Assembly (NCBI GenBank): GCA_026197095.1
Contig: JAPHTF010000100.1
Span: 1-35,322 of the forward strand
Direction of reading: 5' to 3'
DNA length: 35,322 bases
Source: Gammaproteobacteria bacterium
GTDB lineage: Bacteria > Pseudomonadota > Gammaproteobacteria > UBA6429 > Thiohalophilaceae
Below are positions 7,947-29,182 of this stretch, in pieces. Every line of letters starts with the position of its first letter. Position 1 is the stretch's first letter. Both the position numbers and the translations under genes were made by a program. The notes below the pieces were generated by a model, which saw only the letters and a program-made list of their open reading frames with translations, made no database searches and was not told where the DNA came from.

Positions 7947-9962
<2,016 letters not shown>

Positions 9963-10727
9963 TTAATGTCGATTTTGTTTTTGGCGTAGTGCAGCTTGTT
10001 GTTTTAAGCGGTAAACATCAACTTTATCTTTTAAATGTGTAATAGTTTGTTGCGTTAAAACGGTCCGGCTTTCATCACAGAGTACACCGCTTAACGCCCC
10101 TGCGATACGCTTACCAATATCCAGCAAACTGTTTAATGCTTTACGACATTCAACCGGGCCAGGTAATTGTAAAAATAAGGCAAGGCCTGGTGTTGAAATA
10201 GATTTTAATTGAGAAAGCTCAAAGTAACCGGGCTCAATAGCATTTGCAATACTGAAGACAGCCTGGTTATCTTGCATGTAATGATAAATTTTATGTTCAC
10301 CATGGCTTAATCCTGCTGAAGTCATAACAGCATGTATACCATCTCCGGTAAAAACATGGCCTTTGGGTGACATAATATAAAGAATTATTAATAGTGACTC
10401 GGGGCCTGTTTCAGTAGCATCTTCAACAGCACTAAAAGGCATTTCTTGTTGTTTAGTATACTCTTCAACACGATCACGACCTGAAATAACCAGGCTCAAT
10501 GCCTCAAAATCACTTGAATCAGGTTCATCATCAATTGGAGTTAATACAGGTATAAGATCGTCATCTTCATTTAAAACAGTGCCGCTGGTGATGACAGTAT
10601 TATTACTTGGAGTGAATTTATTTTTTAGCCAAAAAAGTAAATCGTCATCAGATGAGCGGAATCTAAAATAAATTCCCGCTACGATGACAAATCCGATAAT
10701 AGCGATGGTTATACGTAATGAATCCAT
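9963..10727 (-). CDS. zipA: Cell division protein ZipA
   Basis: 254 aa. N-terminal membrane anchor (about residues 4-22, in the family's N-out orientation), a short charged linker rich in Asp/Glu around residues 50-100, and a C-terminal FtsZ-binding ZipA domain (about 112-240) with the VFTGDGIH-type segment. The linker is much shorter than the Pro/Gln-rich one of E. coli ZipA (328 aa). ZipA tethers the FtsZ ring to the membrane. Its position between smc and ligA is the standard gammaproteobacterial order. Confidence 0.95.
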   Translation of the reverse strand: MDSLRITIAIIGFVIVAGIYFRFRSSDDDLLFWLKNKFTPSNNTVITSGTVLNEDDDLIPVLTPIDDEPDSSDFEALSLVISGRDRVEEYTKQQEMPFSAVEDATETGPESLLIILYIMSPKGHVFTGDGIHAVMTSAGLSHGEHKIYHYMQDNQAVFSIANAIEPGYFELSQLKSISTPGLALFLQLPGPVECRKALNSLLDIGKRIAGALSGVLCDESRTVLTQQTITHLKDKVDVYRLKQQAALRQKQNRH

Positions 10728-17954: not shown

Positions 17955-19706
<1,752 letters not shown>

Positions 19707-19817
19707 TCAATATTAATAACTGAAAAAACAACGACAAAGTAAAAAGATAGAATGATTCTATAAATATATAAATATTATTATTTTTATCGAGAGTATGTGC
19801 TAGATCGAAATTAAAAG

Positions 19818-19831
19818 TTGATCTAGATCAA
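19818..19831 (-). promoter_or_regulatory. FNR/DNR-type operator upstream of nirS
   Basis: TTGATCTAGATCAA is a perfect match to the Crp/Fnr-family consensus TTGAT-N4-ATCAA. If it is a class II site centred at -41.5, the -10 hexamer should fall at 19790-19795, where the minus strand reads TACTCT (4 of 6), giving a transcript start near 19783 and a leader of about 85 nt. It suggests control of nirS by low oxygen and/or NO. Confidence 0.85.
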
Positions 19832-19876
19832 GAAAATTAATGATAGATCATCATTATAAAAGCTGATTGTGGGAAA

Positions 19877-21523
19877 TTAATTACTGTTATTATTAATAGA
19901 AGCCTGTTTGTTTATCGCCTGACGTCTTTCTATACGTTTTCTTCTTTCAGCCAGTGGTGGACATTTCTTATCATTCCAATAGGTCACCTGACAATCCAGA
20001 CAATAATGACACTCCTGGCTAATAATTTCTCCAGTTAAGCGAATGGCCCCCACTTCGCATTCTGCACGGCATGTTTGACAGGGTCTGCCGCATTCCTTAC
20101 GGCGCCGTAACCAATCAAAGATTTTAAATTTTGATGGGAAGGTCAATGCAGCCCCTAATGGACAGATATAACGGCAATAAAATTTACGGTTAAGCGCTGA
20201 GACTAAAATAAGCGCGGTGGCATACAATACATAGCCCCACTCACGATGAAAATGTAATGAAAACACCGTTTTAAAAGGCTCAACCTCAGCAACGACTTCT
20301 GCTCGCGCCAATGACTGTAATGAGAGACCGAATAAACCGAGCATCACGAGGTATTTAATCGCCCACAAACGTTCATGCACATAGGCTGGAAACTCAAAAG
20401 AGCGAACCCCAAGCTTCTCACCAATTTTGTAAACTATTTCCTGACTGGCTCCAAAAGGGCACAACCAGCCACAGTAAACTCCCCTTCCCCATAACAATAT
20501 TGTCATAGCAACAAACGACCAGAGAATAAATAACATGGGATCGATCATAAAAGTATCCCAGCTAAAGCCGTGCATAATGGAACTCACGAAAGTCAGAACA
20601 TTAACAATTGAAAGTTGAGCCAGCGAATACCAGCCGATAAAAATAACTGTGTAAATCAGAAAACCATAGCGTAGGTAAATAAGGAACGAAGGGTGATGAG
20701 CCAACCAATCCTGAAAAATCAAAATCAAAAATAAAATTAATAGTCCAGCAGATAAAACAATAATCTGAAATATTTTATTACGCCAGGCATAAACCCAGAT
20801 GGGTTCTTCTGCTGAAATAACAGTATTTTCCTCCGGTTTTATCAAACCGCGTAAAATGGCAATTTCCCGCAGAGCAGTAGTAATCGTACTATTCAGCACC
20901 ATTGCAGTAATAGTCGCACCTGTAATGCCATCGAATGTAACGTATCCTTCACGCTCACTACCACCTACTTGCGAGCGTTGATTAGCATTAAAACCCAGGT
21001 ACTGGTTTTTGAAATCCAGTAAATCCTGTTCAGAAACACCAGCTAATAAAATTGGCTCCTCATGACTCACTATTTCAATGCCAGTTATTTTTCCTGTTAA
21101 ATCAAAACCAACCAGCGTGTGCATAGGTTTTCCTGAATAACCTGGAATAGGCATTACATGATCTGTAAAAAAAACATAACCAACAAGTTTGTTATCTGAA
21201 TAAACGGCGGCTGACTCAGGATCCCCATCAAACGTGCCGAGGCTATCCGCAAAGGGGAAAAATGTCAGCGCATATGGTGTTGCTTCGGAAACGGGATCAA
21301 GCTTTGTTAATAAGCCTGCATTTACGTTGTAATTGAAAGAAAAAAATAAAAATACAAGATAAACAGTAACCAGGCCAAGTTGACGTAATGAATTATATAG
21401 TCTTAAAAATAATATATTTAAAACACGTAGCAAGAAATATTGAGTATGGTGTTTAAAATCAGATGGATGATTATTTCTATTCAATGATAAATACCTGACT
21501 TTAGAATCAAAAATCCCAGTCAC
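19877..21523 (-). CDS. nirI: NirI/NosR-family membrane FMN-binding polyferredoxin
   Basis: 548 aa. An N-terminal hydrophobic segment (about residues 50-65) precedes a periplasmic FMN-binding domain (about 100-225) with the TGATIT flavinylation motif (201-206). Transmembrane helices run through about 252-450 with two CxxxCP motifs (C351/C355, C450/C454), and two Cys clusters follow (C478-C489 and C505-C521) for 4Fe-4S centres. NosR and NirI of denitrifiers have this architecture but are usually longer (roughly 650-750 aa). Beside nirS, NirI is the better name; NosR would sit by nosZ. It likely feeds electrons to nirS maturation or activity or supports nir expression. The GTG start at 21523 overlaps the hemerythrin gene by 17 bp; TTG at 21484 is a possible alternative. 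nirS starts 179 bp downstream. Confidence 0.86.
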   Translation of the reverse strand: MTGIFDSKVRYLSLNRNNHPSDFKHHTQYFLLRVLNILFLRLYNSLRQLGLVTVYLVFLFFSFNYNVNAGLLTKLDPVSEATPYALTFFPFADSLGTFDGDPESAAVYSDNKLVGYVFFTDHVMPIPGYSGKPMHTLVGFDLTGKITGIEIVSHEEPILLAGVSEQDLLDFKNQYLGFNANQRSQVGGSEREGYVTFDGITGATITAMVLNSTITTALREIAILRGLIKPEENTVISAEEPIWVYAWRNKIFQIIVLSAGLLILFLILIFQDWLAHHPSFLIYLRYGFLIYTVIFIGWYSLAQLSIVNVLTFVSSIMHGFSWDTFMIDPMLFILWSFVAMTILLWGRGVYCGWLCPFGASQEIVYKIGEKLGVRSFEFPAYVHERLWAIKYLVMLGLFGLSLQSLARAEVVAEVEPFKTVFSLHFHREWGYVLYATALILVSALNRKFYCRYICPLGAALTFPSKFKIFDWLRRRKECGRPCQTCRAECEVGAIRLTGEIISQECHYCLDCQVTYWNDKKCPPLAERRKRIERRQAINKQASINNNSN

Positions 21524-21974
21524 GTCTGACCTGTTTATTTTGCATAGCTTTCAACCGCTCAATAATTAAATCACGTTGCATAAGTATTGACTGATTAGCC
21601 ATATTTAGAAACACTTTTTCTTCATGTTCATTATGTAACTTCATTGCTGTGTGTAAAGGTTCTATTGATTCCAGAAAATGATCGAAGTCATTACTTTTTA
21701 TAATATATGACAAATCATTAACAAGGTGAACAAGATAGTCATGTTCTTCGCTTAGGTGAGAGATCATGCCCTCTGGATCTCCATTCTCATTTATAAATAA
21801 TGGATAGAGCACTTCATCTTCCATTTGCATATGAAGTTTAAGATCCATTACAAAATTTTCAAACAGACGTTTAGCATTCTTCCACTCCCCGAGGTCAGCC
21901 GCCATTTCGCATTCATCAAGTGAAATATCATATTGACGATGGTCATGTACCAGCCAATTAGATGTGTTGTTCAT
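21507..21974 (-). CDS. Hemerythrin-like diiron protein
   Basis: 155 aa four-helix hemerythrin domain. Candidate diiron ligands occur at the expected spacing: His10, H48xxxE52, His73/His78, His108 and H114xxxE118. Such proteins bind oxygen or NO, or sense them. It is the first gene of the hemerythrin-nirI-nirS run and its end overlaps nirI, so its product is probably needed at the same time, for example to bind or detoxify NO or to repair iron-sulfur centres. GGGAG precedes the ATG. The gene ends the 226-bp AT-rich intergenic region 21975-22200, where no clear FNR box was found. Confidence 0.86.
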   Translation of the reverse strand: MNNTSNWLVHDHRQYDISLDECEMAADLGEWKNAKRLFENFVMDLKLHMQMEDEVLYPLFINENGDPEGMISHLSEEHDYLVHLVNDLSYIIKSNDFDHFLESIEPLHTAMKLHNEHEEKVFLNMANQSILMQRDLIIERLKAMQNKQVRRDWDF

Positions 21975-26739: not shown

Positions 26740-26779
26740 ATACAATATACATCTAAGTCGTAGACATATTGTATGTCTA
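26740..26779. promoter_or_regulatory. Palindromic operator candidate upstream of the DsrC-like fusion gene
   Basis: TAGACATA-TTG-TATGTCTA (26761-26779) is a perfect 8+3+8 palindrome 25 bp before the ATG. A second, related element ATACAATAT (26740-26748) is an exact inverted copy of ATATTGTAT (26766-26774), overlapping the palindrome. The arrangement suggests one or two dimeric regulator sites overlapping the promoter; TACAAT at 26741-26746 could be a -10. Confidence 0.55.
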
Positions 26780-26804
26780 ACATGACTCGTACAAGGAGTA
26801 GCAC

Positions 26805-27533
26805 ATGTCAACTGCTGAAAAGTTAAATTTTGAAATATTAGCCGATGGCCGATTAGCGAATTTGAATGATTGGAGTAAGGAAGTCGCAATGGAGCTGGCA
26901 TCACGTGACAATATAACCCTAAATGAAGACCACTGGACTGTCATTGATTCAATGAGGGATTATTACAACGAGTATAATGTCTCTCCAGTCAATAAGCTGT
27001 TAAAACGTGATCTCAAAAAGCGAACAAACTCAGAACAATTCAGTGACGACTTTTTGAATAGCCTGTTTCCAAACGGGGTCTTATTACAAGGTTCGAAAAT
27101 TGCAGGCATCCCTCGCCCATATCTCGACGCAGAATTAGAACGAGATACTTATAAAGGAAAAGCCATAACAAGTTCGACACATTTTGTAGACTCATTTGAA
27201 TTTGAAGGTAAAAATTTTGAAGTTACATCATTAGGCAATCTTGTAGATTTACACCGATGGAATTCACACGTAGCAAACTATATGGCTCAAAAAGAAGGTA
27301 TTGAGTTAACAGAAGACCATTGGGAAGTGATCGAATTTTTGCGTGAGTTTTATTTTACCTATGGCATTAGTCCAATGGTAAAAATCATCATGAAACATAT
27401 TGAAGAGGATATTGGAAAAGAAAAGGCAAACAAAGAGTACCTATATAGTTTGTTTCCTAAAGGCCCTGCTCGGCAAGGTACAAGAATCGCGGGGTTACCT
27501 GAACCACAAGGTTGCATTGACTCTGATAATTAA
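26805..27533 (+). CDS. Tandem two-domain TusE/DsrC-family protein
   Basis: 242 aa, about twice the family's ~110. Domain 1 (about residues 7-108) and domain 2 (about 130-237) each carry the family's layout: L(N/H)xW segment, EDHW, RDYY/REFY and the (I)AG(I/L)PxP end. Canonical DsrC has two C-terminal cysteines; TusE keeps only the last. Here domain 2 keeps only the last one (Cys237, GLPEPQGC), followed by an unusual five-residue tail IDSDN, and Thr226 stands where the second Cys would be. Domain 1 has lost both (Ser97 and Asp108). If sulfur-carrying, it would use Cys237 alone, as TusE does. A clean RBS (AAGGAGT) precedes the ATG. It stands alone, between a possible operator and a hairpin; no dsr or tus genes adjoin. 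Confidence 0.9.
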   Translation: MSTAEKLNFEILADGRLANLNDWSKEVAMELASRDNITLNEDHWTVIDSMRDYYNEYNVSPVNKLLKRDLKKRTNSEQFSDDFLNSLFPNGVLLQGSKIAGIPRPYLDAELERDTYKGKAITSSTHFVDSFEFEGKNFEVTSLGNLVDLHRWNSHVANYMAQKEGIELTEDHWEVIEFLREFYFTYGISPMVKIIMKHIEEDIGKEKANKEYLYSLFPKGPARQGTRIAGLPEPQGCIDSDN

Positions 27534-28385: not shown

Positions 28386-28558
28386 TCCTTACTCCAAATT
28401 CTGTTTATTTAAATAATGTGACCTTAACAGCTTGATTTACAATGAAAATATCACATATCATGGTTGAATCTCGCTATTGTACCACTTCGAATAATTTTCG
28501 TACTTATTGCGTATTCGGCAACATTCTGGTATTAAAGCGCGTTGTATTTTTTATTTTT

Positions 28559-28564
28559 TATAAT
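28559..28564 (+). promoter_or_regulatory. Candidate -10 element of dksA with a GC-rich discriminator
   Basis: TATAAT 25 bp before the dksA start codon is followed by TCGACGGC, a GC-rich discriminator of the kind found at promoters repressed by ppGpp and DksA. No good -35 is seen at the right distance. Autorepression of dksA is known in E. coli. Confidence 0.4.
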
Positions 28565-28588
28565 TCGACGGCTGGAGAAAACTTTACA

Positions 28589-29182
28589 ATGCCTGCAAAG
28601 AAAAAAACTGCTGCTAAAAAGAAAGTTTCTAAGAAGAAAACTGTAGCGAAAAAAACTGTAGCGAAAAAAACCGCGGCTAAAAAGAAAGTTGTTGCAAAAA
28701 AAGCAGCGACTAAAAAAACAGCCACTAAAAAAACGGCTACGGCAAAGAAAAGCATTCCTTCAAACATTTCACAGGAATTTAAACAGTTCGAGCCTTACAA
28801 AGAGAAAAAAGGTGAAGAATATATGAATGATGCTCAAATTGAGCATTTTCGTCATATTTTAGGTGCATGGAAAAAGGAACTCATGCAAGAAGTCGATCGC
28901 ACCGTACATCATATGCAGGATGAGGCTGCAAACTTCCCTGATCCTAACGATCGTGCTTCACAAGAATCGGACTTTACAATGGAATTGCGTACACGCGACC
29001 GTGAGCGTAAGCTGATCAAAAAAATTGATGAATCGATTGATGATCTTGATTCAGGTGAATATGGCTACTGCGAAGAATGTGGTATTGAAATTGGTATTCG
29101 CCGTCTTGAAGCCCGTCCAACAGCAAATTTATGTATTGATTGTAAGAGCTTAAGCGAAATTCGTGAAAAATCTATGGCGTAG
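28589..29182 (+). CDS. dksA: RNA polymerase-binding transcription factor DksA with a Lys/Ala-rich N-terminal tail
   Basis: 197 aa from the ATG at 28589, which has GGAGA 10 nt upstream; a longer reading frame from 28442 would run through the leader and is rejected. Residues 2-55 are a lysine/alanine/threonine-rich tail like histone H1 or AlgP. The DksA core follows: coiled coil about 83-155 with the tip D118-D121-A123 (DPNDRA, equal to D71/D74/A76 of E. coli), and a four-Cys zinc finger C161, C164, C182, C185. E. coli DksA is 151 aa and lacks this tail. DksA sits in the RNA polymerase secondary channel and, with ppGpp, mediates the stringent response; the tail probably adds nucleic acid affinity. 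Ended by a strong terminator. Confidence 0.95.
28640..28684 (+). repeat. 15-bp tandem repeat inside the Lys/Ala tail of dksA
   Basis: ACTGTAGCGAAAAAA occurs twice in a row (28640-28654 and 28655-28669), then a diverged third unit to about 28684. The unit encodes TVAKK, so gain or loss of copies would stay in frame. Confidence 0.8.

Follow-up and report, generated by a model that had tools for sequence, protein, structure and literature searches.

A two-domain DsrC-family protein with a single conserved cysteine in Gammaproteobacteria: an apparently undescribed variant and candidate sulfur carrier

The locus described here raises the question of why a protein of the DsrC/TusE family should contain its domain twice, with the sulfur-carrying cysteines missing from the first copy, and what such a protein does. 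The gene lies in a stretch of gammaproteobacterial DNA of 35,322 nucleotides, which is called the window below (features of the gene in Table 1). A first-pass annotation made from the sequence alone described one odd protein; a search for other double DsrC proteins revealed many of them, that is, a conserved family.

Table 1. Features of the tandem gene and its product (positions in the window)
Feature	Position	Strand	Basis
Tandem DsrC/TusE-family gene, 242 aa, stand-alone	26805..27533	+	ORF call, Pfam, NCBIfam, own-genome search, 52 other tandem genes in 51 loci
AAGGAG, ribosome-binding-like site, 6 nt 5' of ATG	26793..26798	+	Direct reading
Domain 1, residues 10-111, DsrC fold without carrier cysteines	26832..27137	+	5.4e-27; 7syb Z 15.2 (residues 7-110); alignment
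Ser97 codon, inner (CysB) position of domain 1	27093..27095	+	Sequence, profile alignment of halves
Asp108 codon, within [LM]-D-x-E end of domain 1 arm	27126..27128	+	Asp in 46/47
Variable linker, residues 112-128	27138..27188	+	22% mean pairwise identity; mean pLDDT 54 for residues 111-120
Domain 2, residues 129-242, DsrC/TusE-like, one carrier cysteine	27189..27530	+	4.9e-40; 1yx3 Z 15.9 (residues 120-237)
Thr226 codon, inner (CysB) position of domain 2	27480..27482	+	Cys in 1/47 at position
Cys237 codon, putative sulfur-carrying cysteine	27513..27515	+	47/47
C-terminal tail IDSDN past Cys237	27516..27530	+	Acidic residue at +2 in 47/47

According to both profile collections the whole DsrC/TusE layout is present twice, as the annotation had supposed: Pfam DsrC (PF04358) matches the ORF in two stretches (4.9e-69, 230 bits versus a cut-off of 24.9), as does TIGR03342 (9.3e-70, 231.9 bits versus 53.5), and the halves align with each other in profile-profile comparison (hhalign) with a probability of 100 and an E-value of 3.8e-43. 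When the domains were scored apart in the search of the own genome (5.4e-27 and 4.9e-40), each half alone exceeded the Pfam cut-off. PF04358 is also matched by all 47 aligned tandem proteins, namely the window protein and 46 of the 52 obtained in the genome scan described below, the six near-duplicates L087, L088, L106, L113, L116, and L127 being kept outside the alignment. Mean pairwise identity among tandem proteins is 53% in domain 1, 61% in domain 2, and 22% in the linker. The profile scores together with the predicted DsrC fold place the tandem protein in the TusE/DsrC/DsvC superfamily. Thus, the product of 26805-27533 is a real two-domain DsrC protein whose layout is repeated in dozens of related proteins, most of them from sulfur oxidisers, and this recurrence marks it as a real variant of a known protein family. 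In the open-licence literature searched, including sections of PMC10504309, PMC11406059, PMC7787665, PMC6504805, and PMC3397948, no description of a two-domain DsrC was found; the variant is therefore apparently undescribed, although a prior description elsewhere is possible. The annotation's remark that no role is described for such a fusion agrees with this, since its many relatives include none with an established role in the literature searched.

The arm ends differ clearly between the two halves. Cys237 is retained in 47/47 proteins and is their sole conserved cysteine, and the inner DsrC cysteine is absent from domain 2 in 46/47, with Thr226 at this position in the window protein; L098:1973-2728 is the single tandem protein with a cysteine also at the inner position of domain 2. 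Because domain 2 has lost its inner cysteine as well, the whole protein possesses a single carrier-type cysteine. In domain 1 no column contains cysteine in more than 2 of the 47 proteins, and the commonest other cysteine column (3/47) lies in the linker. At least two residues follow the C-terminal cysteine in all 47 members, the second of them always acidic (Asp in 44, Glu in 3); C-I-D is the exact terminus in 10/47, and the cysteine, sixth from the end in the window protein, is never penultimate in the family. The one C-terminal cysteine and the extra IDSDN tail noticed at first were thus confirmed and refined, the inner position being Thr226 and the extra tail a trait of the whole family.

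The further suggestion that Ser97 and Asp108 of domain 1 stand where the two cysteines would be held for Ser97, which occupies the inner position, while for Asp108 (conserved in 46/47, with one gap in L084) it depends on the alignment. An ungapped alignment of the halves places Asp108 opposite Cys237, whereas MAFFT and hhalign leave a two-residue gap facing Gly236-Cys237 and pair Leu107-Asp108 with Ile238-Asp239. Since both of these programs gap Gly236-Cys237, domain 1 may have lost Gly-Cys and kept the hydrophobic-acidic end, and such a loss describes the data as well as a Cys-to-Asp change does. Other DsrC paralogues show the opposite of the usual single-cysteine pattern: L004 / L079:7899-8231 (G000 contig 60) and L170 (G346) keep the inner cysteine (QAC), have no outer one, and end with RGWSTG and RAWSTG, respectively.

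The AlphaFold2 model of the window protein, obtained with 47 sequences, has a mean pLDDT of 89.5 and a pTM of 0.83 for the two-domain chain, and a second model, of the Thiohalobacter thiocyanaticus protein (L093), gave 89.8 and 0.82; both were built on nearly the same alignment. In the predicted model, residues 120-237 superimpose on Allochromatium vinosum DsrC (1yx3) with Z 15.9 and rmsd 1.9 over 111 residues at 50% identity, and residues 7-110 on the DsrC-family sulfurtransferase 7syb with Z 15.2 and rmsd 2.1 over 101 residues. The first half is accordingly predicted to keep the DsrC fold, which is the opposite of what would have spoken against the annotation; with this predicted fold, no conserved cysteine, and a sequence constrained at 53% identity, the description of a silent copy fused to an active-looking copy is borne out. 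The high pTM suggests a fixed packing of the two domains. A decaying duplication without function would agree with the lost cysteines of domain 1 and with its lower identity relative to domain 2; however, 52 other tandem genes have open frames, and fold residues and the arm motif of domain 1 are kept, so that decay appears to be largely refuted by this conservation and is extremely improbable.

The distribution of the tandem form was studied in two overlapping ways. At E up to 1e-45, relatives were counted in 10/40 genomes of the source's own family and in 16/369 genomes drawn from the class, two genomes being shared by these sets. When 84,980 species genomes were scanned with sequence patterns, 68 loci were obtained, of which 51 are tandem (52 genes), 2 are adjacent single-domain pairs (L130, L139), and 10 contain a lone single-domain gene with a tail (L142 and L143 come from one MAG), the rest being 4 TusE-like loci (Acidobacteria, KSB1) and 1 canonical DsrC. 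Many loci are the same contigs as in the counted genomes, so that the scan and the counts are not independent, and the patterns were derived from domain 2, so that distant tandem forms can escape them. All 51 tandem records bear the label Proteobacteria, Gammaproteobacteria, or a subgroup, one being Sulfuricellaceae, and all are MAGs except the cultured Thiohalobacter thiocyanaticus Hrh1 (HRh1; L093). In one locus, L100 (G138), two tandem genes adjoin (8916-9662 and 9986-10726), and the same MAG has the single-domain tailed L133. A mobile or viral origin was considered and rejected: 8 of 50,697 phage records matched, all 8 single-domain-sized; 18 of 72,556 plasmid records matched, with about one domain and no tandem form among the matches listed (10 of 18); and of 17 viral-contig stretches matching the pattern none was confirmed as a tandem form.

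The tandem gene is associated with dsrA-bearing genomes. In the class set dsrA was found over the cut-off in 14/16 tandem carriers versus 98/353 other genomes (Fisher 2e-6, kinship uncorrected); at the same time 98 of the 112 dsrA-positive genomes have no tandem gene. The same 14 carriers have DsrE, but 40/40 dsrA-positive non-carriers picked from the 98 have it too, which means no specific link between DsrE and the tandem gene. The two carriers that have neither dsrA over the cut-off nor DsrE are G217, where the tandem gene is on a 3.9-kb contig, and G224, which is 81% complete and whose congener G084 has dsrA. In a section of PMC6504805 the extra dsrC/tusE copies of Thiohalobacter were suggested to replace DsrEFH; the "three dsrC/tusE genes" named there were not matched to L093 here. 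As an explanation of the tandem protein such a replacement was rejected as not general, DsrE being kept in 14/16 carriers.

In the own genome contig 138 contains one run named dsrA, B, E, F, H, C, M, K, L, where dsrA, DsrE, and DsrC were identified by searches and the others by gene order and sequence reading. The DsrC of this run is a canonical two-cysteine protein and the tandem gene is on a different contig, so the tandem protein is an addition to DsrC and not a substitute for it. Altogether the own genome has 7 DsrC-family genes, and G346 has 11 DsrC domain matches. In comparison with oxidative DsrC of A. vinosum, the tandem protein is similar in the fold and sequence of each domain and in the outer carrier cysteine, whereas it differs in two domains per chain, the missing inner cysteine, the 5-residue tail, and a position outside the dsr cluster. 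Of the features by which DsrC is recognised, two arm cysteines with a penultimate outer one and location in a dsr cluster, neither was found (Thr226, inner Cys in 1/47, Cys237 sixth from the end; dsr run with its own DsrC elsewhere). Consequently, despite the fact that the tandem gene occurs mostly in dsrA-positive genomes, it is very unlikely to encode an extra DsrC that serves DsrAB and DsrMKJOP as redox partner: 46/47 proteins lack the inner cysteine, the tail runs past the outer one, and the dsr run already has its canonical protein. According to part of PMC3397948, A. vinosum DsrC was persulfurated in vitro only at its penultimate cysteine, whose counterpart in the tandem protein is Cys237.

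The one-cysteine pattern resembles TusE (NF008562; single-domain 7syb), with which the tandem protein shares the single carrier cysteine and the alignment of domain 1 with 7syb, differing in two domains, a cysteine that is not penultimate, and a patchy distribution. That it is a TusE serving tRNA 2-thiolation with MnmA as acceptor is nevertheless unlikely. The score of 180.9 bits on the equivalog NF008562 comes near the cut-off of 191 but stays below it even with both stretches summed. Thiolation of tRNA is general, in contrast to the tandem gene, which at E 1e-45 was not found in 353/369 class genomes. Moreover, L003 of the own genome, which ends with GCS and has Asn at the inner position, could be its TusE. 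Domain 1, having no carrier cysteines, is also similar to RspA-type proteins, DsrC homologues without either cysteine. However, its fusion partner bears a cysteine, and in the tree domain 1 lies closer to this partner than to L005/L006, which are cysteine-less single-domain DsrC paralogues (support 90), and the tandem protein as a whole, with Cys237 in 47/47, does not belong to a type without carrier cysteines.

The domain tree included 103 DsrC-family domains over a small number of columns (114) and 28 of the 53 tandem proteins, after removal of 12 tandem fragments or exact copies and then 17 near-copies (120 to 103 rows); L053 is a repeat of L047. In this tree the 28 copies of domain 1 form one group (SH-aLRT 99), the 28 copies of domain 2 form another (93), and both join 13 single-domain tailed rows (support 90), the tree giving no firm branching order for the three. 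A single duplication and fusion fits the tree and would most simply explain the origin of the tandem protein, which would stem from the DsrC subfamily with C-[IVT]-D ends. In the full-length tree the window protein groups with nine loci (98), none of them among the nine known copies of its own family, and its identity reaches 67% to proteins of other families as compared with 50-54% to those of its own. The own-family copies are scattered, with at least 3 changes forced by the starred branches, while the families of the other loci are mostly unassigned. These placements speak for horizontal transfer or for old paralogues having been lost. There is no sign of recent transfer, as the G+C content of the tandem gene (37.7%) resembles that of its flanks (37.5 and 38.8%).

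The closest branch in the tree is formed by the single-domain DsrC-like relatives L133-L138 and L140-L143, which end with P-x-D-C-[IVT]-D, together with the adjacent pairs in L130 and L139, which resemble a pre-fusion stage. Like the tandem proteins, they have an acidic tail past the cysteine (C-[IVT]-D, mostly then one or two more residues); unlike them, they have one domain, both cysteines, and, in 5/12 loci, a nearby gene for two cyclic-nucleotide-binding domains and a rhodanese (tblastn; about 3 kb away in three, in stretches of unequal length). In L133 this gene lies about 290 bp downstream of the tailed gene; in L130 it is upstream of the DsrC-like pair with a Rieske gene between, and its product is also fused to an FGE-sulfatase domain; gene order in L139 is as in L130, with the first gene cut by the contig end. 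Pfam found both cNMP-binding and rhodanese domain types in all 3 loci scanned, and the encoded protein is a plausible sulfur donor for the single-domain tailed branch. The tailed-gene loci L130:3330-8321, L133:4870-6554, L137, L139, L140, and L141, several of them near a cNMP-binding/rhodanese gene, look like a regulated sulfur relay. By tblastn this gene is near the tandem gene in 0/51 loci. At genome level a match (E 1e-15) was obtained in 16/16 tandem carriers versus 28/40 picked dsrA-positive non-carriers (Fisher 0.012), which, being a post hoc comparison uncorrected for kinship and with some matches below full length, can be taken as a lead.

The surroundings of the tandem gene were compared in 52 tandem loci (51 and the window), as the annotation had suggested, and the gene stands alone: no neighbour suggesting a partner recurs among them. 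In the window its neighbours are an aminotransferase and a HAD hydrolase on the opposite strand. The largest neighbour cluster covers 9 loci at 2-8 kb in varying positions and orientations, and its representative was possibly miscalled by the simple ORF caller, with which L060 and L065 gave no tandem gene in an earlier look at 24 loci. The nearest recurrent neighbour lies 64-160 bp upstream on the opposite strand in 7 loci of one clade, and a glucosamine-synthase-like gene, identified by eye, is present in 6 loci that belong to two groups, with its distance varying widely. Two other places in the window deserve mention in their own right. At 28442-29182 (+) a DksA has a long lysine/alanine-rich N-terminal extension, weakly similar to histone H1-like Hc2 (below curated cut-offs), and 17955-21974 (-) encodes in a row a cytochrome c and cytochrome d1 protein, a NosR-like protein (651 bits, well below the NosR cut-off of 1000), and a small hemerythrin-like protein (by eye).

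This isolated position outside the dsr cluster would also suit a regulator or sulfur sensor, the main rival explanation, in which a fused DNA- or protein-binding DsrC-like pair would change the state of domain 1 upon persulfidation of Cys237. Domain 1 has weak structural matches to PerR/Fur and LexA (Z 3-5), weak Pfam matches were obtained to LexA in 2/47 and to PC4 in 8/47 proteins, and a putative role of DsrC in transcription regulation is repeated in a passage of PMC7787665 that cites Venceslau 2014. Nevertheless, Z 3-5 is within the range given by unrelated folds, and both domains are acidic, with net charges of -5 and -8 (about -4 for each on average in the family), though canonical DsrC L001 is acidic as well (-6). 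Just 5' of the tandem gene, at 26761-26779, lies a perfect 8-bp inverted repeat, which was rejected as an upstream operator. Its sole exact match in the own genome is itself, with one other place at 2 mismatches versus 5 for the reversed-pattern control; in the sequences upstream of the 52 tandem relatives no match is better than 5 mismatches in 16 positions, and their inverted repeats differ. The promoter scan gave 3 promoter-like sites, below the shuffle mean of 4.0 and none on the + strand, and the terminator scan gave 1 terminator-like site, within the tandem gene. Taken with the points on both sides, a regulator is a doubtful reading.

The preferred reading, to which a probability of about 0.5 can be given, is that the tandem protein is a soluble TusE-like one-cysteine sulfur carrier whose chain includes a partner domain that carries no sulfur. 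Three observations favour it: a single arm cysteine is conserved, the predicted fold is that of DsrC, and the gene is associated with genomes that have dsrA. Cys237, close to the end of the domain 2 arm, would be loaded with sulfane sulfur by a sulfurtransferase, such as DsrE or a rhodanese, and would pass it on to an acceptor, as TusE does; the two-cysteine disulfide/trisulfide chemistry with DsrAB and DsrMK is not expected, as the inner cysteine is missing. Domain 1 would be a fold-retaining copy that packs on domain 2 and offers an additional surface for docking; its arm remains conserved, ending with [LM]-D-x-E in place of Gly-Cys, and the retained arm and fold imply that it probably still binds something. 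Of the roles that the annotation proposed for such a fusion, namely an internal scaffold, a regulator, or a dominant partner of a separate DsrC or of a TusBCD/DsrEFH complex, none is singled out by the present data, which gave no sign of an interaction with these proteins. Against the carrier reading speak the lack of an accompanying partner gene, the rhodanese fusion included (0/51), the 98 of 112 dsrA-positive class genomes that do without the tandem gene, the presence of DsrE in non-carriers too, the two carriers that have neither dsrA nor DsrE, the never penultimate cysteine, and the TusE score below the cut-off.

A more far-reaching version is possible, though clearly less probable: the proteins may form a new class of covalent pseudo-dimer carriers with a single origin and a later spread among sulfur-oxidiser families, in which the silent domain occupies the carrier site of a donor or acceptor complex and either gates or positions the single active arm. 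If this is true, an internal competitor would control sulfur transfer. The function is testable, as the gene is present in the cultured T. thiocyanaticus HRh1. Proteins of the DsrC family have a central place in both sulfur oxidation and sulfate reduction, and many paralogues of them occur in sulfur oxidisers. The conserved internal non-carrying copy would separate "docking" from "carrying", and could reveal the routes of sulfur where several carriers compete.
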